In this document: positions 1-44,029 of the stretch, piece by piece
Numbering within the stretch: position 1 is the stretch's first letter
Layout: each line of letters starts with the position of its first letter
Origin: a bacterium (candidate division B38) B3_B38
Lineage (GTDB): Bacteria; Acidobacteriota; B3-B38; Guanabaribacteriales; B3-B38
DNA: 45,844 nucleotides
NCBI GenBank assembly: GCA_005223145.1
Contig: NJBL01000011.1
Coordinates: 1 to 45,844 of the forward strand
Reading direction: 5' to 3'
Program-made: the position numbers and the translations under genes
Notes under the pieces: model-generated
Told to the model about the DNA's origin: nothing
The model's input: the letters and a program-made list of their open reading frames with translations, nothing else
Database searches by the model: none

Positions 1-821
1 TCCAGCGGGGAGGACCATCTACTGGATTGCCTACATTAGTAGGGCAGCAGGATATGATGCAGGCTCGGTGGGGTTCGCATGGGGATTACGAGATAATAGC
101 TTTGTGCCCTTCCTCACCGCAGGAGCTGTTTGATTACACTATAAAAGCGTTTAACCTCTCAGAGAAGTATCGGGTGCCGGTGCTGGTCATGGGCGACGAG
201 GTGGTAGGGCATATGTCCGAAAGGGTGGTCATCCCCTCTAAAGAAAAAATAGAGCTGTTCTCCAGAAGAAAGTACACCGGTCCCCCGGAGGAATACCTTC
301 CTTTTAAGCCTGACAAGAACCTCGTGCCGCCGATGGTCACTGCTGGTGAGGGATACCACATCCACATTACCGGACTCACCCACGATGAGAAGGGATATCC
401 AGTAATCAATGCGGAAGCCCAAAATGAACTGGTTCCCCGCCTGATGAATAAGATAATAAAGAATGCCGATAAAATTATTGAAATTGAGGAAACCAACACC
501 AAAGATGCTGAGGTTATTATTATCTCCTACGGTATTTCCGCGCGAACCTCGCTTAGGGCAATTGAGCTGGCAGAAGAAGAAGGAATAAAGGTAGGAATAT
601 TGAGGCTGATTACTGTCTGGCCTTTCCCTGAGAAAAGAATCTACCAGTTAGCAAGCAAGGTTGCGGGCTTCGTGGTGCCCGAGATCAACTTAGGACAGAT
701 AGTTTACGAGGTAGAACGCTGTGCAAAAGGAAAGACCAGGGTCACTCTGGTACCCCACGCTGGCGGTCACATCCACGACCCCAGGGATATTTTCCAAGCG
801 ATAAGGAGTACATTGAAATGA
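1..821 (+). CDS. korA: 2-oxoacid:ferredoxin oxidoreductase, alpha subunit (5' truncated)
   Basis: The reading frame is open at the left edge (first full codon at base 3). The TTG at 27 lies inside the conserved motif RGGPSTGLPT, so it is not the real start and the gene begins outside the window. The subunit family oxidises 2-oxoacids (2-oxoglutarate or a branched-chain analogue) with CoA and ferredoxin in the cytoplasm. Visible features are GPSTGLPT, the following GQQDMMQARWGSHGDYE block, and a C-terminal transketolase-like domain ending near VPHAGGHIHDP. It overlaps korB by 4 bases (ATGA), so the two are translationally coupled. A ferredoxin-type KorD subunit often precedes korA and may lie upstream. 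The family is clear, but the 2-oxoacid preference (Kor versus Vor) cannot be read from the sequence. Confidence 0.9.
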   Translation, partial: QRGGPSTGLPTLVGQQDMMQARWGSHGDYEIIALCPSSPQELFDYTIKAFNLSEKYRVPVLVMGDEVVGHMSERVVIPSKEKIELFSRRKYTGPPEEYLPFKPDKNLVPPMVTAGEGYHIHITGLTHDEKGYPVINAEAQNELVPRLMNKIIKNADKIIEIEETNTKDAEVIIISYGISARTSLRAIELAEEEGIKVGILRLITVWPFPEKRIYQLASKVAGFVVPEINLGQIVYEVERCAKGKTRVTLVPHAGGHIHDPRDIFQAIRSTLK

Positions 822-1648
822 ATGAAAAGCATCCCATGGATTACCTTCTAAGGGAGGACCGCATCCCCCACATCTGGTGTCCTGGTTGTGGCATAGGGAG
901 TTCGGTATCCTGCTTCATTATGGCACTGCAGGAGTCGGGCTTGGATCTGAAGAAGGTAGCTGTGGTCTCAGGAATTGGCTGCACGGGTAGGGTGGCTGGC
1001 TATGTCAAGCTCGATTCCTTTCATACCACCCACGGCAGAGCGATACCCTTCGCCACCGGTCTGGCTTTAGCCAACCCTGAGTTGAAGGTGGTGGTTTACA
1101 GCGGGGATGGTGACCTTATTGCTATTGGGGGGAACCATTTTATCCATGCGGCTCGGCGTAATGTCAATATGACCGTTATTTGCATCAATAATTTCCTCTA
1201 TGCAATGACTGGGGGACAGGTGGGACCCACCACCCCCCTTTATGCTAAGGCTTCCACCTCCCCATACGGGAACTTCGAGCAACCCTTTAATCTGGTCCAT
1301 CTGGCGGCTGCCAGTGGGGCGGTCTATGTGGCACGCTGGACTGCTCTGCACCTTAGAAGGCTGACCAAGTCGATGACCGAAGCCCTCCACAAGAAAGGCT
1401 TCAGCTTCATAGAGGTAATCTCCCCCTGTCCCACCTCTTATGCCCGCAGGAACCGCTTAGGCGATGGCCTGGCGCAGATGAAATTCTATCATGATAACAG
1501 CATCATAAGGCATGGAGCAGACCCCAAGGACACCGACATCGGTTTCCAGACAAAAATCGTGGTGGGTAAATTCATTGACGAGGAACGTCCCGACCATTAC
1601 ACCTTCCTGACACAGGAGCTGGAAAAAGTGACAGGAGGAAAGAAATGA
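818..1648 (+). CDS. korB: 2-oxoacid:ferredoxin oxidoreductase, beta (TPP-binding) subunit
   Basis: This 276-residue protein is the thiamine-diphosphate subunit of the KorABC enzyme. The N-terminal WCPGCGIGSS carries the cysteines that help hold a [4Fe-4S] cluster in this family. The TPP/Mg motif begins with SGDGDLIAIGGNHF and ends about 25 residues later with CINNFLYAMTGGQ, followed by GPTTP. SPCPTSYARRN and the GDGLAQMKFYHDNS segment are also typical of KorB. Length is normal. The start ATG overlaps the korA stop (ATGA), and its own TGA stop overlaps the korC start in the same way, so the three subunits should be made in equal amounts. The use of UGA as a true stop here matters for interpreting the hdrA genes downstream. 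Confidence 0.93.
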   Translation: MNEKHPMDYLLREDRIPHIWCPGCGIGSSVSCFIMALQESGLDLKKVAVVSGIGCTGRVAGYVKLDSFHTTHGRAIPFATGLALANPELKVVVYSGDGDLIAIGGNHFIHAARRNVNMTVICINNFLYAMTGGQVGPTTPLYAKASTSPYGNFEQPFNLVHLAAASGAVYVARWTALHLRRLTKSMTEALHKKGFSFIEVISPCPTSYARRNRLGDGLAQMKFYHDNSIIRHGADPKDTDIGFQTKIVVGKFIDEERPDHYTFLTQELEKVTGGKK

Positions 1649-2208
1649 GCCGACAGGAGATAAAGTTTACGGGATTTGGTGGCCAGGGGATTATCCTCGT
1701 CGGTTACATACTGGGAAAGGCTGCCTCCGTCTACGGTGGAAGAAATTCCACCATGGTGCAGTCCTACGGCCCAGAGGCTCGGGGCAGTGCCTGTAGTTCT
1801 CAGGTGGTTATCGCCGATGGAGGAATTTTTTATCCCTATGTGACTAACCCCGATATGCTGGTGACAATGTCTCAGGAAGCCTATGTCAAGTTCCTCCCTG
1901 AACTGAAGGAGGGGGGAATTCTTATAATTGATGAGGATCTGGTTACACTGAAAAAAACCAAAAAGAAGATGACTATGTTTTCCATACCCGCTACGCGATT
2001 TGCCGAAAAGATGGGGAAAAAAATAGTAGCCAATATTGTGATGCTTGGCTTCTTTACCGAGGTGACCAAGACAGTCAGCTTTGAGGCGATGGAGAAGGCA
2101 GTAGCCACCTCTGTCCCCAAAGGGACTGAGGAGTTGAACTTGAAAGCTCTGCACGAGGGTCGGCAATATGCCCGCAATATATTAGCAGAAGGGAAAAAAG
2201 ATAATTAG
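1645..2208 (+). CDS. korC: 2-oxoacid:ferredoxin oxidoreductase, gamma subunit
   Basis: This 187-residue protein matches the gamma domain of 2-oxoacid:acceptor oxidoreductases. It opens with the signature [18 protein letters not shown] and continues with [21 protein letters not shown], both highly typical. The gamma subunit helps form the CoA site and the contact between alpha and beta. Size is normal and the gene appears intact. It overlaps korB by 4 bases. It ends 58 bases before the first hdrA start, and the short gap contains a weak terminator-like hairpin. The same-strand arrangement suggests that reduced ferredoxin or electrons from KorABC are passed to the Hdr proteins encoded next; that link is inference. 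Confidence 0.92.
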
Positions 2209-2211
2209 TCT

Positions 2212-2238
2212 CCCCTGGGAACCTCGAAGGGGCTTTTT
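2212..2238 (+). terminator. Weak terminator-like hairpin between korC and hdrA
   Basis: CCCCT (2212-2216) can pair with AGGGG (2228-2232) across an 11-base loop, followed by C and a run of five T. The stem is only 5 bp, so it is more likely a partial attenuator between korABC and the hdr genes than a full stop. Confidence 0.3.
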
Positions 2239-2266
2239 ATTAATCAAAGAAACGGTAGCAATAAAG

Positions 2267-5200
2267 ATGAAAGGTGTTCTGGTTATCGGAGGTGGGGTGG
2301 CTGGTATGCAGGCTGCCCTCGATTTAGCCAATGCTGGGGTCAAGGTATTCCTTATGGAACGTAACCCTTCCTTGGGAGGGAGGATGGCTCAGCTTGATAA
2401 GACCTTCCCCTCTATGGATTGCGCTACCTGAATCCTCGGACCCCGCATGCTGGATGTCGGTCGACATCCCAATATAGAGCTCTTGACCCTCTGTCAGCTA
2501 ACAAAAGTTGAAGGGGAAAAAGGAAACTTTCGAGTAAGCTATCTGAAAAAAGCTCGCTATGTAAAAGAGGATGTCTGCACTGCATGTGGAATCTGTGCCG
2601 AGAAATGCCCCATTAAAGTCCCCGATGATTTTGAATTAGGCTTGGGAAAGAGAAAAGCTGTCTATATTTACTGCAGCCAAGGGGTGCCCTCTGTGTATGC
2701 CATCGACCCTGAACACTGCCCTATGATTCTGAAGGGGAAGTGCGGGCTCTGTGACAAACTATGTCAGGCGGGAGCTATTGATTATAACCAAAGGGACGAA
2801 GAGAAAACCATCAATGTAGGAGCTATCGTTGTGGCTACTGGCTTTAGTCAGCTTAAGCCCACTGCTTTGAAAAATTACGGTTACCGGCAATATGCAAATG
2901 TCCTCACCGGGCTGGAATTTGAGCGATTACTCAGCGCTACCGGTCCCACCGGCGGGCATATTCTCCGTCCCTCCGATTCTAAGGCACCCCAAAAAATCGT
3001 TTTTATCCAATGCGTCGGTTCGCGCATGACCAAAGAAAATGGCTATCCCTATTGCTCGGTATACTGCTGCACTAATTCTATAAAATGCGCCCTGCTGGCT
3101 AAAACCCACGACGCCAATATAAAAGATATCTCCATATTGTATATGGACCTTAGAACCTATGGCAAGGGGTTCCAGGAGCTGTTCCTGCGGGCGAAAGAAG
3201 TGGAAGGGGTTAAGTTCTTAAGGGGGCGCCCCGCCCGGGTGCTGGAAAACCCTGAGACCAAAAGCCTGACCATAATGGTGGAGAACACCGATAACAACAG
3301 GATAGAGCCTCTGGAAGCAGATATGGTTGTCCTCTCTACTGCCGCTATCCCTTCAAAAGGTGCGGAGGAGCTGGCTCGGATTTTGGGCATTGAGGTTGAT
3401 AGCTATGGCTTCTTCAAAGAGAGGGATTTCCACCACCCCACAGAGGCAACACGCCCGGGAGTATATATAGCCGGCTCTTGCAGTGGCCCCCGCGATATCA
3501 CCGACTCGGTAGCCTGGGGAACGGCAACGGCTGTAAAAGCCCTTACCCATATGGAGGGAGCCCGGATTGCTAAAAAAGAGATAGATGTAGAGCCGATAGA
3601 CATCTCTGGCGAACCCCGCATAGGTGTCTTTGTATGCCATTGTGGGATAAATATTGCCGGAGTTGTAGATGTGGAGGAGGTTAATCAGTACGCACAAACC
3701 CTTCCGGGGGTGGTTTACTCTGAGCGTATGCTATTTGCTTGCGCTGATGACAGCCAGAGAGAGATCCAGGACAAGATAAAAGAATATCAGCTCAACCGGG
3801 TGGTAGTCGCCTCCTGTACTCCCAGAACCCATGAGCCCATTTTCAGAGAGACCTGCGATTTAGTTGGTTTAAACCCCTACCTTTTTGAAATGGCCAACAT
3901 AAGGGACCAGTGCTCATGGGTTCACGCCTCTAATCCCAAAAAGGCAACCGAAAAAGCAAATGACCTGGTCAGGATGGCGGTGGCTCGTTGCCATCTGTTG
4001 CAGCCCTTGGAATCAAGGCAGATGCCGATGAACCCTGATATGCTGGTAGTAGGGGGGGGAATTACGGGCATCCAGGCTTCTCTCGACCTGGCACGACTGG
4101 GGCATAAAGTAACTTTGGTTGAGAAGGAAGACAGATTGGGGGGAAGGGTTAAGGAGTTAGCCACCTTCTATGAAGAAAATTATGATGGGGAGCAGCTCAT
4201 TAGTGAGAAGGTAAAGCAACTGGAAAAAGCTGGGGTGAATATCTTGACCTCTACCATGGTAAATGAGGTCAGCGGCTTTGTAGGTAATTTCGAGGTATCC
4301 CTGCAATCTCTGAAACAAAAAGAGGAAACGACCACCATTCAATTAGGCTCCATTGTGGTGGCCATAGGCTCCGACCTGTACGACCCCACCGGGAAGTTCG
4401 GCTACGGCTCCTTTCCTAATATCCTGACCAATATGGAGATGGAGAAGCTCCTGAGAGAGGGCTCGTCTGAGCTGACCCCGGATGGTAAAGAAGCCAAGAA
4501 CATCGTTTTTGTTCAATGTGTCGGCTCACGAAATAAGGAGGAGGGCAATCCCGATTGTTCCCGCTATTGCTGTCTTGTTGCCATTAAACAGGCATTGAAG
4601 CTTAGAGAGAAAGGTGCCCGGGTAGTAATCCTCTACCGCGACATCATCGCTTTCGGCAAAGGAGGGGAGGAGCTATATCGCAAGGCAAGGGGCGAGGGTG
4701 TCCTCTTCCTCAGATACGATGCCGAGAATCCCCCTCAGGTCATAGGGAAGGGGAGGGCAACCGGCATCCGATGGATGTTCTCCCCATTAAGCCAGGAGAT
4801 AGAGCTCCCGGTAGACTTAGTGGTGTTGTCGGTAGGAATGGTCCCTCGAAAGGTGGATGCGGAGCAAATTCAAGAACAGTTGAAGATCCCTCGCAGCCTG
4901 GATGGTTTCTTTATGGAGAGACACTCCAAGCTGGGTCCGGTGGAGACCTCCACAGAGGGAATTTATATATGTGGCTGTGCACAATCGGCAAAGGACATCA
5001 CCGATTCTGTAGCTCAAGCTTCAGCAGCAGCAAGTAAGGCAGCGGTGATGGCTTCCAAGGAATTTGTTGAGCTGGAGCCAACTACCTGCGTGGTACGGGA
5101 AGAACTATGTCGAGGCTGCGGAACCTGCCAGGAAGTATGCCAGTTCAACGCTCCTGAGCTGGTGGAGACCCCTGCGGGTTACTATGTTTCCCGCATAAAC

Positions 5201-5326
5201 GAAGCTCTATGCAAAGGATGTGGTACCTGTGCTTCCCTTTGCCCCACCGGGGCTATAGTGGCTCGACACTTCACCGACCTGCAGATTGATAAAATGGTCG
5301 AAGCTATGCTAGCGAGCTCTTTATAA
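2267..5326 (+). CDS. hdrA: Double-module HdrA-type iron-sulfur flavoprotein with selenocysteine (Sec55)
   Basis: HdrA is the FAD/iron-sulfur subunit that bifurcates electrons in heterodisulfide-reductase complexes. Reading through the in-frame TGA at 2429-2431 gives about 1019 residues. Module 1: a Rossmann FAD motif at the N-terminus ([12 protein letters not shown]), then [12 protein letters not shown]-Sec-ILGPRM, where homologues have Cys, and an inserted [4Fe-4S] motif at C104/C107/C110/C114. Module 2: an HdrA N-terminal domain from about residue 451 ([14 protein letters not shown]), a second FAD motif near 590 ([12 protein letters not shown]), and two C-terminal ferredoxin motifs near 946 and 982 ([22 protein letters not shown]). 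Module 2 has neither the MDC-x-x-Sec motif nor the inserted cluster. The ATG at 2267 is the best start; no strong ribosome-binding site is visible. Without Sec, a gene caller would begin at 2447 and lose the FAD motif. Confidence 0.88.
2452..2469 (+). promoter_or_regulatory. Bacterial SECIS-like hairpin of hdrA copy 1
   Basis: GGATGTC (2452-2458) and GACATCC (2463-2469) form a perfect 7-bp stem with loop GGTC. It starts 20 bases after the UGA at 2429-2431. This fits bacterial SECIS elements, which lie inside the coding region just 3' of the UGA and carry a G near the start of a small apical loop for SelB binding. It also encodes the conserved residues DVGRHP. An identical hairpin follows the second hdrA UGA. 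Confidence 0.8.
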
Positions 5327-5345
5327 CCTGGGAGTGATGTATTAC

Positions 5346-5783
5346 ATGGGGAACAAGAAAAAAGAAGAGGAATTTGAACCTAAGATCGTAGTTTTTGCCT
5401 GCAACTGGTGCTCCTACGCAGGAGCAGATACGGCTGGGGTTAGCAAAATCCAATACCCTCCCAATGTCAGACTAATAAGGGTGATGTGCTCTGGAAGGGT
5501 CAACCCCGCCTTCGTCATAAAGGCTTTCGAACGGGGGGCAGATGGGGTTATGGTCTCCGGCTGTCATTTTGGAGATTGCCACTACATGTTTGGTAATTAC
5601 CAGGCCAAGGAGCGGTTTGAAATTTTAAAGAGGCTCATTCATATCCTCGGTCTGGAAAAGGAGAGATTGAGGCTGGAATGGGTCTCTGCTGCAGAGGGGG
5701 GTAGATTTGCTCAAGTCATAAGAGAGTTTGTTGAGGATGTTAAGAAAGTGGGTAGAAGCCCCTTAGCCCCCATTACAATATAA
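5346..5783 (+). CDS. mvhD: MvhD/FrhD-type [2Fe-2S] electron-transfer subunit
   Basis: MvhD is the small protein that passes electrons to or from HdrA; in methanogens it joins the hydrogenase to Hdr. The sequence shows the family blocks VVFACNWCSYAGAD, VMCSGRVNPAFV, SGCHFGDCHYMFGN and RLEWVSAAEGGRFAQ, with all cysteines present. Candidate starts are GTG 5334, ATG 5337 and ATG 5346. The GGGAG at 5330-5334 is 11 bases before 5346, giving about 145 residues; the others are too close to it. The gene follows hdrA copy 1 by about 20 bases. No hydrogenase genes are adjacent, so its donor or acceptor is probably not a hydrogenase. A second MvhD domain is fused to HdrA copy 2. Confidence 0.9.
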   Translation: MGNKKKEEEFEPKIVVFACNWCSYAGADTAGVSKIQYPPNVRLIRVMCSGRVNPAFVIKAFERGADGVMVSGCHFGDCHYMFGNYQAKERFEILKRLIHILGLEKERLRLEWVSAAEGGRFAQVIREFVEDVKKVGRSPLAPITI

Positions 5784-5801
5784 CATAAAGGGTGAGTTCA
5801 G

Positions 5802-6947
5802 ATGGTTGTGAAAGAAGAAGTGCTCAAGAAAACACAGGCGTATTACTGCCTTGATTGTGGTAAATGCACCAGTGTTTGTCCTATATCCCGCTTCAATGGG
5901 GGATTCTCTCCCCGGCGGATTCTCGTCGGCAGCCTCACCGGAAGATACGAAGAAACTTTGAAGGATGAAAAACTTTACACCTGCCTGACCTGCGGCTTAT
6001 GCGGTACCAGGTGCCCATCGGATGTAAAGTTTGGAGAATTTATCAAAAACGCCCGCTTTGAGGGGCAAAAACTGGGTAATCTGATTCCCTGCGCCCATGG
6101 GGGGGCTATCCAGTCTCTCATGCGGATAATGACTTCCCCCTCTCTGGAACAGAGACGCCTGGGCTGGGTTCCTCGTGCAGCTAAGGTTGCGGAGAAAGGT
6201 GAGGTAGCATACTTTGTTGGTTGTCTCCCTTATTTCGATGCCTTTTTCACCGATATAGAGGTGGATAGCCTCAAAATTGCCAAAGCTGCGGTTAAGATTT
6301 TAAATCGGGCGGAGGTGGAGCCTGTCTTGCTGAAGAACGAAAGATGCTGTGGTCATGACCTCCTGTGGGCGGGAGACCTTGACAACTTTAAGAAACTTGC
6401 TGAGCATAATATCAATGCCATAAAGGAGAGCGGAGCCAACACTGTTATCACCACCTGCGCCGAGTGTTACCGCACCTTCAAGATCGACTACCCCATTTAT
6501 ATAGGACCACTCCCCTTTAAGGTGCTGCATATTACGGAGTTTTTAATCGACAGCGTTTCTCAAGGAAAACTCAATTTTAAGAAAACGCGCAAGAAGGTCA
6601 CCTTTCAAGACCCTTGCCGATTGGGAAGGCACTTGGGTATGTATGAGCAACCCAGAATGGTTCTCAGCAGTGTCCCAGAACTCTCTATGGTGGAGATGGA
6701 GAGGAATCAGCAGAGCGCCATTTGCTGTGGCACCAGCGGCTGGATGAACTGCGACGCTATCTCTAAGCGTATACAATCTCACCGCTTGAAAAGCGCCCAG
6801 CAGACAGGTGCTGACCTTCTGGTTACCGGATGTCCCAAGTGCTATATCCATTTCAAATGCGCTATGAAAGACCCCAAGATGGGGAAAGAGTTAGAAATAG
6901 AGATAAAAGATTTGACTTCAATTATAGCTGATGCCTTAGGGAGGTAA
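5802..6947 (+). CDS. HdrC-HdrB fusion (heterodisulfide reductase-like, two [4Fe-4S] motifs plus two CCG domains)
   Basis: This 381-residue protein joins an HdrC-like ferredoxin part to an HdrB/HdrD-like catalytic part. Cys16-19-22-26 (CLDCGKCTSVCP) and Cys61-64-67-71 (CLTCGLCGTRCP) are two [4Fe-4S] motifs. Two complete CCG domains follow. The first runs from YFVGC through ERCCGHD to TTCAEC; the second from FQDPC through ICCGTSGW to TGCPKC. In HdrB these cysteines hold the two noncubane clusters that reduce a disulfide. The true substrate here is unknown: it could be another disulfide, a thiol carrier or a partner redox protein. It sits between mvhD and hdrA copy 2, with 18- and 5-base gaps. 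Its acceptor role in the complex is inference. Confidence 0.87.
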   Translation: MVVKEEVLKKTQAYYCLDCGKCTSVCPISRFNGGFSPRRILVGSLTGRYEETLKDEKLYTCLTCGLCGTRCPSDVKFGEFIKNARFEGQKLGNLIPCAHGGAIQSLMRIMTSPSLEQRRLGWVPRAAKVAEKGEVAYFVGCLPYFDAFFTDIEVDSLKIAKAAVKILNRAEVEPVLLKNERCCGHDLLWAGDLDNFKKLAEHNINAIKESGANTVITTCAECYRTFKIDYPIYIGPLPFKVLHITEFLIDSVSQGKLNFKKTRKKVTFQDPCRLGRHLGMYEQPRMVLSSVPELSMVEMERNQQSAICCGTSGWMNCDAISKRIQSHRLKSAQQTGADLLVTGCPKCYIHFKCAMKDPKMGKELEIEIKDLTSIIADALGR

Positions 6948-6952
6948 GATAA

Positions 6953-9358
6953 TTGGCAATCGAAAGGTCTGAATCTGATGAGTTGAGGATTGGTGTTTTT
7001 ATCTGCTATTGTGGACTTAACATCTCGGGGACTGTCGATTGCGAGGCGGTGGCTGAGTATGCTCAGGGGCTGAAGGATGTGGTAGCAGCCAGCACCAACC
7101 GCTATACCTGCTCGGAACCCGGACAGCAGGAAATCAAAAACGACATAAAGGAGCATAATCTCAACCGGGTGGTCGTCGCATCGTGTTCCCCCAGAATGCA
7201 CGAACCGACCTTCAGGGTTGCCTGTCAGGAAGTAGGGCTAAATCCTTACTTGCTGGAGATGGTAAACCTGCGAGAGCACTGCAGCTGGGTCCACATGCAT
7301 GAGCCCGAAAAAGCAACCGAAAAAGCCAAAGAGATGGTAAAAATGGGAGTGGCTCGTGCCCGCTTCCTCCAGCCTCAGATTGAGAAAGAGGTCCCGGTTG
7401 ATAGAAGCACCATGGTGATCGGGGGTGGAATTGCCGGCATACAGGCTTCTCTCGACCTCGCCAATGCCGGGTATCAGGTATATCTGGTGGAAAAGAAACC
7501 AAGCATTGGCGGGGTTATGGCCCAGATAGACAAGACCTTCCCCACCATGGACTGTTCCATCTGAATATTGGGACCGAAGATGACGGATGTCGGTCGACAT
7601 CCCCGAATCGAGCTTATGACCCTTAGCGAAGTGGTAGATGTCCAGGGGTACATAGGGAACTTCAGGGTCAAGGTTCTTCGCAAAGCCCGCTATGTAGACG
7701 AGAAAGAGTGCACCGCCTGCGGCGATTGTCTTGAGGATTGCCCGGTTACCAAGCCCAACGAGTTCGACCTCGGTCTTTCCACCCGCAAGGCGATCTATCA
7801 ACCCTTCCCTCAGGCAGTACCGGCGGCTTTTGCGCTGAATATGGAAGAATGCCTGGGGAATAACCCTATTGCCTGTGGCAAGTGCTTGGAGAAATGCGAG
7901 AAGGAGTGCATCGACTACGATATGCAGGATAAGGAGGTGGAAATTAAGGTAGGGACTATTATTGTCGCTACAGGAATGGATGTCTACGACCCCACGGAGC
8001 TCGATGAGTTCGGATATACCCGCTTTGAGAATGTGGTCACCAGCCTCGAGTTTGAAAGGCTGATAAACGCCGGCGGACCCACTGAAGGGCATCTCATCCG
8101 ACCCACCGACTGGCAGCTGCCCAAAAGGGTCGCTTTCATACAATGTATAGGCTCCCGCTCAGAAAAGAGGGGGAACCCCTATTGCAGCAATGTCTGCTGT
8201 ATGAACACCATCAAGGATTCCCTCCTCATAAAGAATCACTGGCCCGAGGTGGAGATAAAGGTCTTCTATATGGATATAAGAGCTTTCGGCAAAGGGTTTG
8301 AAGACCTTTATAAACGGAGCAAAGCTGAGGGGGTTATGTATATTCGGGGTATTCCCGGTGACATAAGAGAGGATCAGGAGACCAAGAACCTTTTCCTTTT
8401 GGCCGAAGATAGCAATACGGGTAAAGTTATGGAGCACGAAGTGGACATGGTCATCCTCTCCATCGGGCTGATTCCCAGCACCGAAAATAGCCTTATTCGA
8501 CAGCTCCTGACTCTCTCCCGAACATCGGATGGCTTCTTCATGGAAGCCCACCCTAAGCTGCAACCCGTTGATGCCCCTACCAAAGGGGTCTTCTTTGCTG
8601 GCTGTGCCGAGTCTCCCAAGGATATCAAAGACAGCGTCACCCAGGCTTCTGCGTCGGCTTCCAGGGCAAACATACTGATGAGCGCTGGCAAGTTCACTGT
8701 GGAGGCGATTACCTCTCTGATAAACGAAGAGCTATGTAAGGCTTGCGGTCTCTGCGCCAGGGTATGCCCCTATCATGCCATTGAATTTGACAAGGAGAAG
8801 AAGCTCCCTGCTCGGGTTATCGAAGCCAGCTGTGCCGGCTGCGGCACCTGCGGGGCTGAATGTGCTTTTGATGCTGTTGTTATGCGACACTTCACCGACC
8901 AGCAAATTCTCGGCCAGGTGGAGGCCATCCTGGAGGAAAACCCTCAGGATAAGGTGGTGGTATTTGCCTGTAACTGGTGCTCCTATGCCGGGGCGGACTA
9001 TGCCGGGGTCTCCCGTCTCCAGTACCCTCCCAGTATCAGAATTATCAGGACAATGTGCAGCGGGCGGGTGGATGAGAAATTTGTACTTCATGCATTTAAG
9101 CTGGGTGCTCCAATTGTTCTGGTATCCGGTTGCCATTTCGCCGACTGCCATTATATAAATGCCAATCGCTGGACCCAGAAAAGGGTGGAGAAGCTGTGGG
9201 ATAAGCTGGAAAAGAAGGGTATACGACCAGAGCGCTTACAGTTGGAGTGGATCAGTGCCGCTGAGGGATTAAAATTCGCCAAGGTAATGAAAGAGATGGA
9301 GGAGCTCAGACAAGGTGTCACCCTGGAGGAGATAGACTACACACGGAAGGAGCTCTGA
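6953..9358 (+). CDS. hdrA: HdrA-MvhD fusion with selenocysteine (Sec204)
   Basis: Read through the in-frame TGA at 7562-7564, this is an 801-residue HdrA. The TTG start at 6953 has GGAGG 8 bases upstream (6940-6944). Order: HdrA N-terminal domain (IGVFICYCGLNISG, from about residue 12), FAD motif near 160 (MVIGGGIAGIQ), DKTFPTMDCSI-Sec-ILGPKM, inserted [4Fe-4S] at C253/C256/C259/C263, two ferredoxin motifs near 595 and 627 (CKACGLCARVC, CAGCGTCGAEC), then a fused MvhD domain from about 665 (VVFACNWCSYAGAD, SGCHFADCHY, QLEWISAAEG). The gene ends with TGA at 9356-9358, so the same message uses UGA as Sec and as stop. It is clearly diverged from copy 1. It probably forms the bifurcating core with the neighbouring Hdr proteins. 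Confidence 0.9.
7585..7602 (+). promoter_or_regulatory. Bacterial SECIS-like hairpin of hdrA copy 2
   Basis: GGATGTC (7585-7591), loop GGTC and GACATCC (7596-7602) form the same 18-nt hairpin as in copy 1, again exactly 20 bases after the UGA (7562-7564). The terminal UGA at 9356 is at the end of the gene; I saw no comparable hairpin after it. Confidence 0.8.
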
Positions 9359-24777: not shown

Positions 24778-27188
<2,411 letters not shown>

Positions 27189-27215
27189 TCCCTGCTTGGG
27201 CTAATTCTTTCTATT

Positions 27216-29930
27216 TTATGTCCGGATGGTGGCCATCATATAGACCCCACCTATCCCAAAAATAAAGTTAGCAGCCCACGCCCCTAAAAATGGGGAGACC
27301 ACCCCCACACTCCCAAGGCTCTTAAAAAGGCTGACAAAACCCCAATAGACTATTACCAGACCCAAACTGAGAAAAATGCCAGAAAGAGCACCTTTTCTCC
27401 CTACCCGAAAAGAGAAGGGTACCCCTATAAGGACGACGATCAGGGTTATCAGGGGGAAGGAGAGCTTCCAATGGAGGTCGACCTCGTATTTGGTGACATC
27501 ATACCCTCGGCGTTTTATCTCTTTAATGTAAAGCTTCAATTCTCTATAGCTCATTTGTTCGGGAAGGGTCACCTCTTGCCTGAAATAAGATATATCCTCA
27601 GCCAGCTTCATCCTTTGATGCAAGCCGAAAAAAGTAATGGTAGGTGCCGGCTGGGTGAAATCCTGAACCCAGCCATTACTTAAAAGCCATTCCTCCATCT
27701 TCTCGTCCCACCTCGCCTGTTCAGCATAGATCCTACGGGTCAGTCTGAAGCTCTCAGGGTCGTAATCGAATAAAGAAAACTGGCTGACAATGTTATTGTC
27801 CACATCCAACAGGGCATAGAAGTATATCCGCCCCTCTTTCCCTATGACCCATCTTTGCCCCAGATATTGGCGATGGGTTTGGGTGGGACCGCCCTTTATC
27901 TCCTCCAACACCGTCCCCAGCCGCCGGCTGGCATAGGGGAGAACCGTCTCGTAAATCCCAAAGCCCAATCCGCTGATTATAATAGCCATAAGCAAAATAG
28001 GAGCAGAAAGGCGATAGAGACTTATACCACCCGCCTTGAAGGCATGTATCTCGTTATTCTTTGATAACAACCCGAAGGTCACCATGCTCGCCATCAGGGT
28101 AGCCACCGGAAGAATATAGGAGAGCACCTCGGGCAGCTTGAACTTGTAAAAATCGAGCAGCTTCGTATAAGGGACATTGTTCTTGTACATCTCTTCGCTG
28201 ATGTCTATGAAGTCGGTCAGGGCTAACACACAGTAAACTGCCACCGCCACCAAAAGGAACATCTTACCGAAGGTTATCAGGATATACCGGTCTATGATAG
28301 GGGGAAAACCCCCATAGCGGGCTTTTCTCCCCTTGCCTTTCGACCAGAGCCTTACCCTAACAGCGGGACGGGAAGCTCTCAGAAAGAAATTGATAAACCT
28401 CTTCTTCGGCCATCTCACAGCCTTAGCTAAAAAGTGGGTGTCGACCTCTTTCCCCCTATGAAATAGGAGGAATATTCCCAGAGCACCGAATAGAATATTC
28501 GCCGACCACATGCCAAGAAATGGGGGTATCTCCCCTTTATCCCCAAGTGCTTCCCCGTTTATCAAAAATAACCAGTATACAATAAATATGATAAGCCCTA
28601 TGATATAGCAGAGGGACTTGCCTCCTCGACGCATTCCGATGCCCAGAGGGAGAGCCAATATGCCGAAAACCACACAGGCGAAGGGGATGGAGAACTTCTT
28701 ATGAAGTTCAACCATTAATGAGTTGTAGTCCTGCGGGAGGTCCACTTTGTCCAGCTTTAAATCGGTGAATACCAGAATATCTCCACCCTTTACCCGCTTT
28801 TGGAGCAAAGCGTCTTTGTTTAATATGTCCTTTGTTTTCAATAAGTTAGGTAAAGAATAGACACGATTGAAGAGAAGCTCCCCCTCTGAGACTCCCTCCT
28901 CAGGTGGTGTACGATAGATGGATATGGCAAGAAAGACCTTCTCCAGAGAGGAGGGTAGGTAATAGGGAGCCCGAACTAGTACCTTATCCCGGGGCTTTAT
29001 ATGATGTTCGCTGCTCCCTTGCCAGAACATACCTATACCGGTAGTGGCCACCTTTAGTTTAAGAAGAATTCTCTGTTCAAGGTCGCTATTGTTATCTACC
29101 AGCATACTGAGCTCATTTCTCCCTTTCCTTTTTTGAATTTCCTCCCATAGCTCTGCGGGTGTCATAGCCCTCTCATCGGTGACTACATGGAATTGAGTGT
29201 TTATGAAATCTTTTTCCTCAAAAAGGACCATTTGCATCTCCTGGAAAGAGTTCATTCGGGGAGTTTGCGAGCTGGTAGGGGGTTCGTAGAGAGCTCCTTC
29301 AACTAATTGTATACCAATTTTTTTCATCTCAGGGTCATATATCGGCCTTCCTTGATTGGCAAATACAACCCTCGGTTTTCCTATCTCTCTGGTCTCGCAG
29401 AGGAAGACCTTCTTCCATATTTCACCCTTTTTGTCCATATCGGAGACATATAAGACATGATGGGGGAAGTTTTCCTCAAAGACTCTTGGTTTGATTTCCC
29501 CGGAGATAGTCCTGGCAGACATTATCTTAAACTGCAGCTCATTGGTGGAACGGTTACCCCAGGGCAGTGCTTCGGTCATCAGGTAGGTATCCAATATCCA
29601 TGCTGCTGCGCAGAAGATAAGCACAGGGACGAGCATCTTGTATATGCTAATGCCAGCGGAGCGATAGGCTACTATCTCGCTATCCGACGACAGCCTGCTC
29701 ATACCTATCATCGTTCCTAAAAGGGTGGCCATGGGTAATGTAAGCACGATAATGCTGGGCAACATATAAATGAGGAACCTCATCACATTGTCAAGACCTA
29801 CCCCTCTCTGGATGAACATATTTGCTAACAGTAGGAGCTGATTCATAAGTATGATAAAGGTGAACACCAACATTCCAAGCAAAGATGGCGATAGTATCTC
29901 TTTTATAATGTAGCGGTGCATTATCTTCAT
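27216..29930 (-). CDS. LptF-LptG fusion, lipopolysaccharide-export permease
   Basis: LptF and LptG are normally separate permeases of the LptB2FG exporter that extracts lipopolysaccharide from the inner membrane. Here both are one 904-residue chain. The first half (about 1-490) begins MHRYIIKEILSPSLLGMLVF, with three helices, RLSSDSEIVAYRSAGIS, a periplasmic beta domain, then three helices. A basic linker of about 50 residues follows. The second half (from about 540) begins PPIIDRYILITFGKMF, with LLSKNNEIHAFKAGGIS, another beta domain and final helices with LIVVLIGVPFSFRVGRKG. No in-frame stop or missing segment is visible. Both coupling-helix motifs (SDSEIVA and KNNEIHA) are kept. No other lpt gene is in the window. 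Confidence 0.9.
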   Translation of the reverse strand: MKIMHRYIIKEILSPSLLGMLVFTFIILMNQLLLLANMFIQRGVGLDNVMRFLIYMLPSIIVLTLPMATLLGTMIGMSRLSSDSEIVAYRSAGISIYKMLVPVLIFCAAAWILDTYLMTEALPWGNRSTNELQFKIMSARTISGEIKPRVFEENFPHHVLYVSDMDKKGEIWKKVFLCETREIGKPRVVFANQGRPIYDPEMKKIGIQLVEGALYEPPTSSQTPRMNSFQEMQMVLFEEKDFINTQFHVVTDERAMTPAELWEEIQKRKGRNELSMLVDNNSDLEQRILLKLKVATTGIGMFWQGSSEHHIKPRDKVLVRAPYYLPSSLEKVFLAISIYRTPPEEGVSEGELLFNRVYSLPNLLKTKDILNKDALLQKRVKGGDILVFTDLKLDKVDLPQDYNSLMVELHKKFSIPFACVVFGILALPLGIGMRRGGKSLCYIIGLIIFIVYWLFLINGEALGDKGEIPPFLGMWSANILFGALGIFLLFHRGKEVDTHFLAKAVRWPKKRFINFFLRASRPAVRVRLWSKGKGRKARYGGFPPIIDRYILITFGKMFLLVAVAVYCVLALTDFIDISEEMYKNNVPYTKLLDFYKFKLPEVLSYILPVATLMASMVTFGLLSKNNEIHAFKAGGISLYRLSAPILLMAIIISGLGFGIYETVLPYASRRLGTVLEEIKGGPTQTHRQYLGQRWVIGKEGRIYFYALLDVDNNIVSQFSLFDYDPESFRLTRRIYAEQARWDEKMEEWLLSNGWVQDFTQPAPTITFFGLHQRMKLAEDISYFRQEVTLPEQMSYRELKLYIKEIKRRGYDVTKYEVDLHWKLSFPLITLIVVLIGVPFSFRVGRKGALSGIFLSLGLVIVYWGFVSLFKSLGSVGVVSPFLGAWAANFIFGIGGVYMMATIRT

Positions 29931-29963
29931 AACTATAAAAATATCATAATTTCTGCACTTTTT

Positions 29964-29992
29964 AAAGATAATAATATGATATTGTTATCTTT
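29964..29992. repeat. 29-bp near-perfect AT-rich palindrome upstream of lptFG
   Basis: The 14-base arms 29964-29977 and 29979-29992 are inverted repeats with a single central base and one G-T mismatch. It lies 34 bases upstream of the lptFG start. It could be an operator or a cruciform or hairpin; no clear promoter pair is visible beside it. Confidence 0.5.
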
Positions 29993-30496
29993 AATATGTC
30001 CGATAAGATATATTATGTAAACTATAAATTGAAAAATGAATGCTTCAAGCTAAACTCAGATAAGAAATAGATGAATTTATATATCTAAAATATCAGACAA
30101 AGACTGGACAAAGAGAGCGAAAAATTTAAGATAATGAAGATAGAGCTCGAGAGGAAAATCAAGGTAGTTTATGAGCAAGTACTGGAAATTGAGAGATTGC
30201 TCAAAGAAAAGAAGATGATCAGGTTTTATGGAGAAGATTAGATGGAGGAAAATTGGGTGAAAGTATGAGGATCACAGGAAGTATGAACGGAAGAATCCTG
30301 TAGGAAGATAGCCTTCCAAAATAGATGTATCAAATTTTTTAACTGCTACATAAAATATCATTTAACTTATTAGGTAAGTTTTTAATATAGTTTTATAAGT
30401 GCTCATGATAAAAAGCATCAAACAAGCCATAAGCTTCTGATGCTAATATCCCCTCCCCTGCTATAGCAAAAATTAATACTTAGATAAATTAATTAG
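29993..30496. other. AT-rich intergenic stretch, no convincing gene
   Basis: About 500 AT-rich bases between lptFG and parB. The only candidate is a 35-codon frame on the plus strand (ATG 30134 to TAG 30239-30241) that would encode a charged helical peptide (KIELERKIKVVYEQVLEIERL), with no ribosome-binding site; I do not call it a gene. AGCATCA (30414-30420) pairs with TGATGCT (30438-30444) over a 17-base loop. No tRNA or CRISPR was seen. Confidence 0.4.
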
Positions 30497-30522
30497 ATGT
30501 CGGCACGCCGACATTCTTTTTT
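30497..30522. terminator. Strong hairpin after parB, probable terminator
   Basis: ATGTCGG (30497-30503), loop CACG and CCGACAT (30508-30514), followed on the plus strand by TC and six T. It lies just beyond the parB stop (30529), so on the minus strand the A-rich side precedes the stem. It probably ends the parAB transcript and could work in both directions. Confidence 0.6.
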
Positions 30523-30528
30523 GAGGCG

Positions 30529-31341
30529 TTACCCCTCGATATGCCTCAGAATCTCTTTGAGGGCTCTTATTATATCCTCCCTGCTGGCTTCTTTTTTGGC
30601 GAACCTGAGGTTAAGGACGAAGCTACTGCCGGCTCCTTTATATGTAAAGGAAAAACGCCTTTCTCTGCCGCTGCTCTTCCGCCTCGCATCCCGGGCGCGA
30701 TCACGAGTCCATCGACCACCTATTATGGAACTAACAAGGGAATTCATATCTTTATCTGTGGGTTGCCGCGCGATCTCTAAAAGGAGGGATTTGGAGGTAA
30801 TGTTCTCCTTCTGGCAAAGCTGACGGATTTTATCGGGTATCCTGTTCAATCTGATTGTTTCGGTGATGCTAACACGCGATTTTGCAATTCGTTTGGCAAT
30901 CTCCTCGTGAGTGTAATGGAACTTCTCACAAAGAAACTGCAAGCCCGATGCTTCTTCAAAGGGCGAAAGGTCTTTTCTTTGTAGATTCTCAATCAAGCCG
31001 AGCTCCGCCGCTTCTGCCCGATCAACCTCCCGCTCAACGCAAGGAACTTCCTTAAGCCCCAGCTCACAACACGACCGAAACCTTCTCTCCCCCGCTATTA
31101 TGTGATATTTTCCTTGATGGAAACGAACTATCAGAGGCTCCAGGAGCCCTTTCTCCCGTATAGAATTTTTCAATTCCTCTAAGTCTCCCAGGGAACTCCT
31201 CGGCTGATCGGGATTGGGCACAATATCCTCAATGGGTATCATCATACCTATAGGAGCTCCCAAACGGGAGGATAGATGCTCCACAAAATGCCGGTCGTGT
31301 CGCATCTTAATTACTTTTGGTAGTCCTTTCCTGCTGGACAC
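30529..31341 (-). CDS. parB: ParB-family partition protein
   Basis: ParB binds parS sites and works with ParA to segregate DNA. The 270-residue protein has the N-terminal nuclease-like domain (IPIEDIVPNPDQPR, EKGLLEPLIVR, IIAGERRFRSCCELG with the CTP-binding GERR box, LIENLQRKDLSPFEEA) and a helix-turn-helix (YTHEEIAKRIAKSRVSITETIRL). The C-terminal region is short and basic. GTG at 31341 has GAGG 9 bases upstream and overlaps parA by 35 bases. ATG at 31305, directly after the parA stop, is an alternative. I found no full parS consensus in the window. Confidence 0.87.
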   Translation of the reverse strand: MSSRKGLPKVIKMRHDRHFVEHLSSRLGAPIGMMIPIEDIVPNPDQPRSSLGDLEELKNSIREKGLLEPLIVRFHQGKYHIIAGERRFRSCCELGLKEVPCVEREVDRAEAAELGLIENLQRKDLSPFEEASGLQFLCEKFHYTHEEIAKRIAKSRVSITETIRLNRIPDKIRQLCQKENITSKSLLLEIARQPTDKDMNSLVSSIIGGRWTRDRARDARRKSSGRERRFSFTYKGAGSSFVLNLRFAKKEASREDIIRALKEILRHIEG

Positions 31342-32086
31342 GGTTTATTACCTCTTGGCAAAGCTGTTTATATTCTATAGCCCCTTTTGAGCCAGGGGCA
31401 AAGGTAAAAATAGACTCCTTGTAAGCGGGGCTCTCTTCTAACCTCACACTCTTGGAGATGACTACACGGAAGACCTTTTTGCCGAAGACCCTCTTTATCT
31501 GGCGAACTATATCCCGCCCAAGGACGGTCCGGTGATCGTGGATGGTGACGAGGACACCCAGGATCTGCAGGCCAGGATTTGGTCTTTTCTTGATTTTTTC
31601 AATAGTTTCCAGCAGATCATCAGTCCCCTCTAAAGAGAAGTAGGATGATTGAATGGGAATGAGGACATGTGAGGCAGCCACCAAGATGTTAACCGTTATG
31701 AGTCCCAAAGATGGAGGGCTATCGATGATAATGAAGTTGTAGTCACCCTTAATCTGCTGCAGCCTATCTTTCAGTCTGAAGTGACCATCAAGCTCTCCTA
31801 ACAGCTTGCTCTCCAGCTTGGCGAGGGAGATTCTGGCTGGTGCCAGGTAAAGTCGCTCGAATTTGGTGGGTATGATGACCTCTGGAAAAATCGACTCACC
31901 GATGAGAACTTCATAATTAGTGATATCGACCTTATCGGGGTCAGTAAAGGCTATGGTGCTGTGCCCCTGGGGATCCATATCTAAAAGAAGGGTAGTATAG
32001 CCCTGCCTGGCTAAGCCAGCGGCCATATTTATCGCGGTGATGGTCTTCCCTACCCCGCCCTTCTGGTTAGTGATAGAAATAATCAT
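31307..32086 (-). CDS. parA: ParA/Soj-type partition ATPase
   Basis: ParA is the Walker-type ATPase that moves ParB-parS complexes. From ATG 32086 the protein has about 259 residues and begins MIISITNQKGGVGKTITAINMA, with the deviant Walker A KGGVGKT, then DMDPQGHST and FIIIDSPPSLGLITVN. The frame stays open to a TTG at 32125, but those bases form the -35 and -10 boxes of the promoter, so ATG 32086 is the better start. It is the first gene of a two-gene operon with parB. The absence of an N-terminal helix-turn-helix points to the chromosomal Soj type. Confidence 0.9.
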   Translation of the reverse strand: MIISITNQKGGVGKTITAINMAAGLARQGYTTLLLDMDPQGHSTIAFTDPDKVDITNYEVLIGESIFPEVIIPTKFERLYLAPARISLAKLESKLLGELDGHFRLKDRLQQIKGDYNFIIIDSPPSLGLITVNILVAASHVLIPIQSSYFSLEGTDDLLETIEKIKKRPNPGLQILGVLVTIHDHRTVLGRDIVRQIKRVFGKKVFRVVISKSVRLEESPAYKESIFTFAPGSKGAIEYKQLCQEVINRVQQERTTKSN

Positions 32087-32096
32087 CTTTAAATAA

Positions 32097-32125
32097 ATAA
32101 TAAGATAGTTTTGAGCACAAGTCAA
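32097..32125 (-). promoter_or_regulatory. parA promoter, predicted nearly leaderless transcript
   Basis: On the minus strand, TTGACT (32125-32120), a 17-base spacer and TATTAT (32102-32097). The ATG at 32086 is only 10 bases after the -10 box, so the RNA would start about 3-4 bases before the start codon, without a ribosome-binding site. Confidence 0.65.
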
Positions 32126-43288: not shown

Positions 43289-43291
43289 GAA

Positions 43292-44029
43292 ATTATTGAA
43301 CAATTTAACGATAAGATTAAGGAGCTGGAGCAAAAAATAGCTTATCAGTTCCAGAAAAAGGAGCTTCTGCTCCGCGCTCTGACCCATCGCTCCTATGCCC
43401 ATGAGCACCCTGAGTCTGTACATGGGGATAATGAGCTGCTGGAGTTTCTGGGAGATGCTATTTTAGGATTCATCACCAGCGAGATTCTCCTCTCAGGTTT
43501 TCCCAATTCCTCGGAAGGGGAACTCACTAAAATGAAAGCCTTCATCGTCTGCACAGAGTGCCTGGCTCAGCAGGCACACAAGCTGGGGCTGGGAGACTAC
43601 CTTCTTTTAAGCCACGGAGAGGAGAAGACCATGGGAAGGGAGAAGGAATCCCTTTTGGCTGATGCTTATGAGGCGCTTACTGCCGCTATATATCTCGATG
43701 GCGGACTAGAAGCTGCTAGAGAATTCGTTCAGAACTCCCTTGCTGATCGGCTCTCTCGCATAGGGGAGCTTGCGGTGCCGGGCAACGATTATAAATCCTC
43801 CTTTCAGGAATATGTGCAGGCTAAAGACCTCCCCTTGCCCACTTACACGGTGGTGGAGGAGTGGGGTCCTCAGCACCGTAAGCATTTCCTGGTGGAGCTT
43901 AGAATTGGCGAGGTACTGATCTCTACCGGGAGGGGAAAAACCAAGAAAGAAGCCCAACAGGAGGCAGCCAAAAGAGCCTGCCAGATGATTCACTCCATCC
44001 CTTTGAATAATGATATCAACAAAGATTAA
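43292..44029 (+). CDS. rnc: Ribonuclease III, apparent non-standard ATT start
   Basis: RNase III cuts double-stranded RNA in rRNA and mRNA maturation. The conserved N-terminal half, AYQFQKKELLLRALTHRSYAHE and the catalytic signature NELLEFLGDAILGF, lies upstream of the first ATG (43532). The downstream part has SLLADAYEALTAAIYLDGG and a C-terminal double-stranded-RNA-binding domain (YKSSFQEYVQAKDLPLPTY, GKTKKEAQQEAAKRA). Between the pyrF stop and 43532 there is no in-frame ATG, GTG or TTG. AAGGAGG at 43275-43281 points to ATT at 43292 (10 bases on) or ATT at 43295, giving about 245 residues, the normal size. A base-call error is the alternative. Confidence 0.85.
   Translation: MIEQFNDKIKELEQKIAYQFQKKELLLRALTHRSYAHEHPESVHGDNELLEFLGDAILGFITSEILLSGFPNSSEGELTKMKAFIVCTECLAQQAHKLGLGDYLLLSHGEEKTMGREKESLLADAYEALTAAIYLDGGLEAAREFVQNSLADRLSRIGELAVPGNDYKSSFQEYVQAKDLPLPTYTVVEEWGPQHRKHFLVELRIGEVLISTGRGKTKKEAQQEAAKRACQMIHSIPLNNDINKD

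Follow-up and report, generated by a model that had tools for sequence, protein, structure and literature searches.

LptF and LptG, the transmembrane pair of the LptB2FGC exporter of LPS, appear to be made in the bacterium studied here as a single twelve-helix chain encoded by a genuine lptF-lptG fusion gene, and among the sampled members of its phylum the fusion is the rule; a probability of about 0.85 is given to this reading. The gene lies in the window, that is, the whole stretch of 45,844 nucleotides that was analyzed, which belongs to a genome (G000) of 2.25 Mb, 102 contigs and 93% completeness. The family and the machine are known ones, with a different and widely distributed subunit architecture.

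The Fused Gene and Its Protein

The gene is a single open frame of 904 codons on the minus strand, with an ATG start and no internal stop (Table 1). In a Pfam search, the protein matches PF03739 (LptF_LptG) with 526 bits in three stretches, and in NCBIfam searches it passes the curated equivalog cut-offs of both LptF (TIGR04407, 366.5 bits against 230) and LptG (TIGR04408, 342.3 bits against 240, with the best stretch at residues 545–900). By phmmer against the PDB, residues 3–238 and 406–490 match solved LptF chains and residues 545–898 match solved LptG chains. The initial annotation, in which an intact 904-residue frame was read as LptF plus LptG, is therefore confirmed by the uninterrupted ATG-to-stop frame and by the two NCBIfam cut-offs. 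Of the make-up of the chain described there, the two halves and the linker stand, but an extra periplasmic domain of about 130 residues in the LptF half (residues 271–401) had been overlooked. No further member of the LptF/LptG family was found in G000, so in place of the two genes that canonically supply LptF and LptG there is one frame only. A separate lptF or lptG elsewhere in G000 was also considered, and none is present in the assembly.

The same single frame is present in two congeners, 87% identical, that come from other assemblies; in one of the two it ends 8 residues short at a contig edge. Among records with a name, the closest is “Candidatus Aminicenantes bacterium isolate 8_1_Oct_SF_Bin20” (L034, 87% identity). 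The Aminicenantes sit in the Acidobacteriota according to GTDB, and from this placement and the matches to the acidobacterial permease ADOP given below, the sampled phylum is probably the Acidobacteriota. A full-length structural model from five sequences had low confidence (pLDDT 40, pTM 0.24), and nothing in this paper is drawn from it.

Table 1. Features of the fused lptFG gene and their positions in the window.
Feature	Position	Strand	Residues	Basis or remark
lptFG, fused LptF-LptG permease	27216..29930	-	904 aa	open frame, PF03739, NCBIfam scores
LptF half, with inserted domain; six membrane segments	28461..29930	-	1–490	TIGR04407, PDB matches, hydropathy
LptF-half coupling-helix motif (glutamate 85)	29646..29681	-	84–95	E in 57 of 59 fused proteins
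Inserted periplasmic β-domain, between jellyroll and TM4	28728..29120	-	271–401	five of the genomes examined; AlphaFold2
Basic linker, cytoplasmic, without ATG	28293..28460	-	491–546 (56 aa)	alignment; side inferred from hydropathy
LptG half; six membrane segments	27219..28292	-	547–904	TIGR04408, PDB matches
LptG-half coupling-helix motif (glutamate 627)	28020..28055	-	626–637	E in 51 of 59 fused proteins, Q in 8

The neighborhood of lptFG (window positions 24778–32125, loci L038–L097) is partly kept among 60 stretches searched by tblastn at E 1e-15, with homologues of parA and of parB in 13, of metK in 19 and of ahcY in 8. Two other parts of the window were read by eye. Positions 27–9358 appear to hold subunits of a 2-oxoacid:ferredoxin oxidoreductase followed by long HdrA-like heterodisulfide reductase proteins, and positions 43289–44029 hold an RNase III-like frame that is open throughout; since its first ATG, GTG or TTG lies beyond the region of the catalytic motif, this frame may use a rare start codon.

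Membrane Topology, Coupling Helices and Linker

A hydropathy scan, in which overlapping segments were merged, gives six membrane segments in the LptF half (residues 8–41, 49–78, 91–119, 411–435, 436–464 and 471–490) and six in the LptG half (545–579, 602–623, 633–665, 817–845, 847–872 and 875–893). A long gap follows the third segment in both halves, and this is the LptF/LptG-type topology, with six helices per half and a periplasmic domain between TM3 and TM4. Because of the six segments per half, the linker should be on the same side as the N-terminus, that is, in the cytoplasm, which fits its charge, and the fusion is therefore topologically simple. The glutamate of the coupling helix, which we take from E. 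coli work to be a contact with LptB, is mostly kept in both halves, so each half should still bind one LptB, as judged from sequence conservation.

The linker of the window protein has 56 residues by alignment, 16 of them basic and 2 acidic, which bears out the basic linker of “about 50” residues described initially. Among 59 fused proteins (that of the window, one protein from each of 57 relatives and, for G018, its second copy as well), the median length of the linker is 55 residues and its net charge is positive in all 59. It is conceivable that the DNA frame is fused and that two proteins are nevertheless made, through cleavage of the linker or an internal start of LptG. The variable length of the linker (33–142 residues) would suit this, as would the presence of an ATG in 29 of the 59 linkers and of a start codon with a Shine-Dalgarno-like motif in nine, and in these nine genes LptG may, as far as the motif goes, be translated separately. 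However, 50 of the 59 linkers have no motif-bearing start, and that of the window has no ATG and one GTG only, which lacks the motif, so that separate translation of LptG is unlikely in the window gene. Furthermore, if separation still mattered, the loss of separate genes throughout the sampled part of the phylum would be odd. Two-protein production is thus considered improbable, and a single permease chain is the reading kept below.

The Other Components of the Lpt Machine

On contig C74 of G000, a protein of 688 aa (L124:4787–6853) is encoded in front of LptB (241 aa), which is followed by sigma-54 (rpoN). LptB passes the cut-off of TIGR04406 (362 bits against 240) and is below that of a second NCBIfam LptB model, NF008144 (310.4 against 381). 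The 688-aa protein passes the cut-offs of both LptC (TIGR04409, 54.5 against 38) and LptA (TIGR03002, 103.2 against 71.7, in three stretches), and consequently LptC and LptA are one chain in G000; another LptA model, NF008143, is below its own cut-off on this protein. LptA was searched for in four genomes, namely G000 and the relatives G003, G023 and G008, and in all three relatives an LptC-LptA chain is likewise over both cut-offs. In G003 the chain precedes lptB and a gene that is sigma-54-like by eye. Of the 60 genomes of the first survey, 22 pass the LptC cut-off, all of them in frames of at least 607 codons, and 38 are below it or without a match; some of these long frames could be LptD, as is the weak second LptC match of G003. 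The phylum of L037 (MAG SKW228) has LptF and LptG as separate proteins; there, 13 of 16 genomes pass the LptC cut-off, with the best matches in frames of 163–320 codons and a second match, in G078, in a frame of 403 codons. The LptC-LptA fusion, so far as model matches and frame lengths indicate, probably shares the phylum with the LptF-LptG fusion.

LptD of G000 has 765 aa, lies on contig C69 and passes the cut-off of PF04453 (77.9 bits against 22.4), while the NCBIfam LptD models score below their cut-offs (136.6 against 683 and 108.3 against 944). PF03739 is broader than the proven LPS exporters, and the fused permease might accordingly transport a lipid other than LPS; in keeping with this, PF04453 LptD was not found in three of the seven genomes tested (G014, G008 and G023). 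Against it, NCBIfam cut-offs are passed in G000 by LptB, LptC and LptA and the Pfam cut-off by LptD, and both halves of the permease are above the equivalog cut-offs of LptF and LptG. A non-LPS substrate is therefore a little less probable still than production of two proteins, and LPS export is preferred; on the strength of its genes for LptB, LptC/A and LptD, the lineage would be a producer of LPS.

Distribution across the Phylum

The first survey comprised G000 and 59 relatives with 35 family codes. The search of related genomes for the fusion, which had been proposed as a check, gave one open frame of 754–987 codons in 57 of the 58 relatives that have the family; in the remaining one (G056) the family is cut by contig ends, the halves lying at the ends of two contigs, and in G031 no match to the family was found. 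The order of the halves is F then G wherever the second half is recognizable as LptG. In the family code f22, the second half of G028 and G052 gave only a weak alignment, which fell on the query's LptF portion, and that of G040 aligned in part only. These three f22 genomes have strongly diverged frames of 756–757 codons, which the family models recognize weakly and which form a long branch in the tree.

In a wider draw of 149 genomes of the phylum, 140 match at E 1e-30 or better. Among the matches listed, which represent 98 of these 140 genomes with G000 included, the frame reaches 700 codons or more in 96, and in G056 and G156 it is cut by contig ends. G156 was considered as an unfused case, but its 391-aa frame (L111) starts open at a contig edge, so it is a cut gene and uninformative. 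Fifty-seven of the 98 listed genomes are new with respect to the first survey, and 56 of them have fused-length frames (743–906 codons), the fusion being read in these from frame length alone. Of the nine genomes without a strong match, six have the code f22; in two members of that code, G028 and G052, a divergent frame of 756 codons is nevertheless present. A few extra copies occur elsewhere than, and in addition to, the fused gene, namely a separate LptG-like frame of 362 aa in G014 (C48, L052) and a separate frame of 495 aa in G147 (C53, L112), and G018 has two fused copies (L056 and L057); the extra copies in these three genomes may be contamination or paralogues.

The window assembly is in 102 contigs, and a lost stop or a frameshift in this one MAG could have joined two neighboring genes, but such an artefact is ruled out by the presence of a like single frame in 57 of the 58 relatives with a match, the one-contig genomes G012 and G058 among them, and by the fused-length frames of 56 further genomes among the matches listed. 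Two separate genes at this place, named initially as the observation that would speak against a fusion, were seen in none of the relatives in the phylum sample, and the suggestion that the fusion may mark a lineage is supported for a wider group than proposed: besides the fused and fused-length frames in the phylum, two outgroup phyla have the genes separate.

Separate Genes in Other Phyla

No fused LptF-LptG pair was found in the matched genomes of either of the other two phyla (n = 15 and n = 16). In the phylum of L037, 15 of 16 genomes match the family and one does not, and the matches lie in frames of 358–479 codons, save one in G074, which is in a frame of 24350 codons on a different contig from the first match of that genome and which we take to be a run of unread bases. 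L037 and its phylum have the same two permeases as the window, but in two frames rather than one; in L037 itself, lptF and lptG are adjacent and in the same order as in the window, with frames of 417 and 374 codons, and separate neighbors in this order offer a simple route to the fusion. The lptF-lptG pair of E. coli also has the F-then-G order of the fused gene. In the Marinimicrobia (the phylum of L036), all 16 genomes match, every match over the cut-off is in a frame of 361–511 codons and one match below the cut-off is in a frame of 806 codons.

The Inserted β-Domain in LptF

The segment from the end of the jellyroll to TM4 (residues 236–420 in the window protein) has 185 residues in the window, G001 and G002, 165 in G003 and 187 in G014, against 49–81 in the other fused relatives. 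These five carriers of the insert are exactly one clade (SH-aLRT 99) in a quick-search tree of the 59 fused proteins, which was built without the columns of the insert and the linker and from which six rows were excluded (the two cut halves of G056, the extra copy of G014 and three outgroup proteins); G014 was flagged in it for an odd letter make-up. Since the carriers group without the insert columns, a single gain accounts for this most simply. Searched against 149 genomes, a profile of the insert finds only the five genomes from which it was built.

Given the window copy of the insert together with two congeners, AlphaFold2 yields a nearly all-β model with pLDDT 71.3 and pTM 0.67; the remaining four models from this prediction have pLDDT 62.7, 61.2, 38.0 and 37.2. 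Foldseek with the insert model gave no match at E ≤ 0.001, the best being GH2 enzymes and a C2 domain at E 6e-3. VIA-align gave Z 9.0 for 9q0x_A, 8.0 for the C2 domain 7a1r_A and 7–8 for other C2 and GH2 chains, scores which, at 7–9, may reflect a merely common arrangement according to the note of the tool. The fold matches are weak, so the predicted domain is named a β-sandwich and placed in no closer class, such as Ig-like or C2-like. Pfam gave zero matches for the insert of the window; for the stretch of G003, which includes LptF sequence, it gave PF03739 over the cut-off and CD225 below it, and for that of G014 five weak matches, all under the cut-offs and the best being UL148 (E 0.004). 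The profile against the PDB gave one weak match (E 0.82).

By topology, the insert would be periplasmic and beside the exit of LPS, which leaves LptF for LptC. It could thus offer the LptCA chain an additional surface for docking, a tentative role about as likely as the alternative, namely that the domain is neutral decoration at a tolerant site without a role in transport. Neutrality would agree with the poor conservation of the insert, the window copy having 26% identity to that of G003 and 12% to that of G014, and with the extra residues that LptF of the Marinimicrobia has at the same site; on the other hand, the insert was retained by all five members of a clade that is recovered without the insert columns. 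In the Marinimicrobia, the segment between the jellyroll and TM4 has 133 residues in L036:5001–6398, against 49–81 in most fused relatives, and looks helical by eye; extra residues are noted for G171 and G172 as well, so the site takes inserts in more than one lineage.

Proposed Mechanism

Docking, transport route and stoichiometry are inferred by homology to the solved LptB2FGC, and the fused chain would go through the normal cycle of that exporter with its two halves tethered. Each of the two halves would receive one LptB ATPase at its coupling helix, and LPS would enter the cavity between the halves and be pushed upward through the jellyrolls in the periplasm until it reaches LptC and LptA, here a single chain, which would pass it on to LptD. 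The basic cytoplasmic linker would take the place of the boundary between two genes. Since one chain contains one of each half, the ratio of LptF to LptG should be 1:1, and equal amounts of both would be automatic; owing to the tether, the two chains would no longer need to find each other. The periplasmic β-domain that the window clade gained just before TM4 could perhaps serve this cycle as an additional docking site for the LptCA bridge.

Relation to Known Systems and Significance

In comparison with the E. coli-type LptB2FG(C) exporter (PDB 6mhu, 6s8h, 5l75 and 8frl), the protein families are the same and the partners LptB, LptC, LptA and LptD are present, whereas LptF and LptG here are one chain with a basic linker of 56 residues, LptF has an extra periplasmic domain and LptC and LptA are joined. 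ADOP (TIGR03434), the acidobacterial duplicated orphan permease, is likewise a long single-chain permease of the same phylum but is of the unrelated MacB/FtsX type and not LptF/LptG. The ADOP model is over its cut-off in 17 of the 60 genomes of the relatives set and in none of 14 control genomes; 24 of the 60 give matches at E 1e-60, with none in G000, G002 and G003.

A natural LptF-LptG fusion was not found described in the literature searched, subscription papers and preprints being outside its scope, and the available parts of PMC10094684, PMC11130926 and PMC8787282 do not describe one. In the last of these, the available text takes the occurrence of LptF/LptG in an Acidobacteria genome to indicate a Gram-negative envelope and makes no mention of a fusion. 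In the available part of PMC8871954, on the other hand, lptF and lptG are reported as “apparently lacking in Acidobacteria”. The fusion is the likely reason for this report, since a double-length protein could be lost from such a survey, giving a false absence.

A wider picture is put forward as a conjecture, in which the machine of the Acidobacteriota throughout would have three chains (LptB, LptFG and LptC-LptA) instead of five, the absence of lptF and lptG given in the literature would be explained by a tethered machine of fixed ratio, and the β-sandwich gained by LptF in a single deep clade would aid the handover of LPS to LptCA; this picture taken as a whole is possible but rather doubtful. 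Inferences about which phyla possessed an LPS outer membrane, and at what time, make use of the presence of LptF/LptG, and correction of a false absence of lptF and lptG would alter the trait table. Moreover, a natural single-chain LptFG + LptCA exporter would aid structural work, because its subunits come in a fixed ratio and one half can readily be mutated alone to give asymmetric mutants, and the LptF-LptG fusion is a candidate genomic marker of the phylum.
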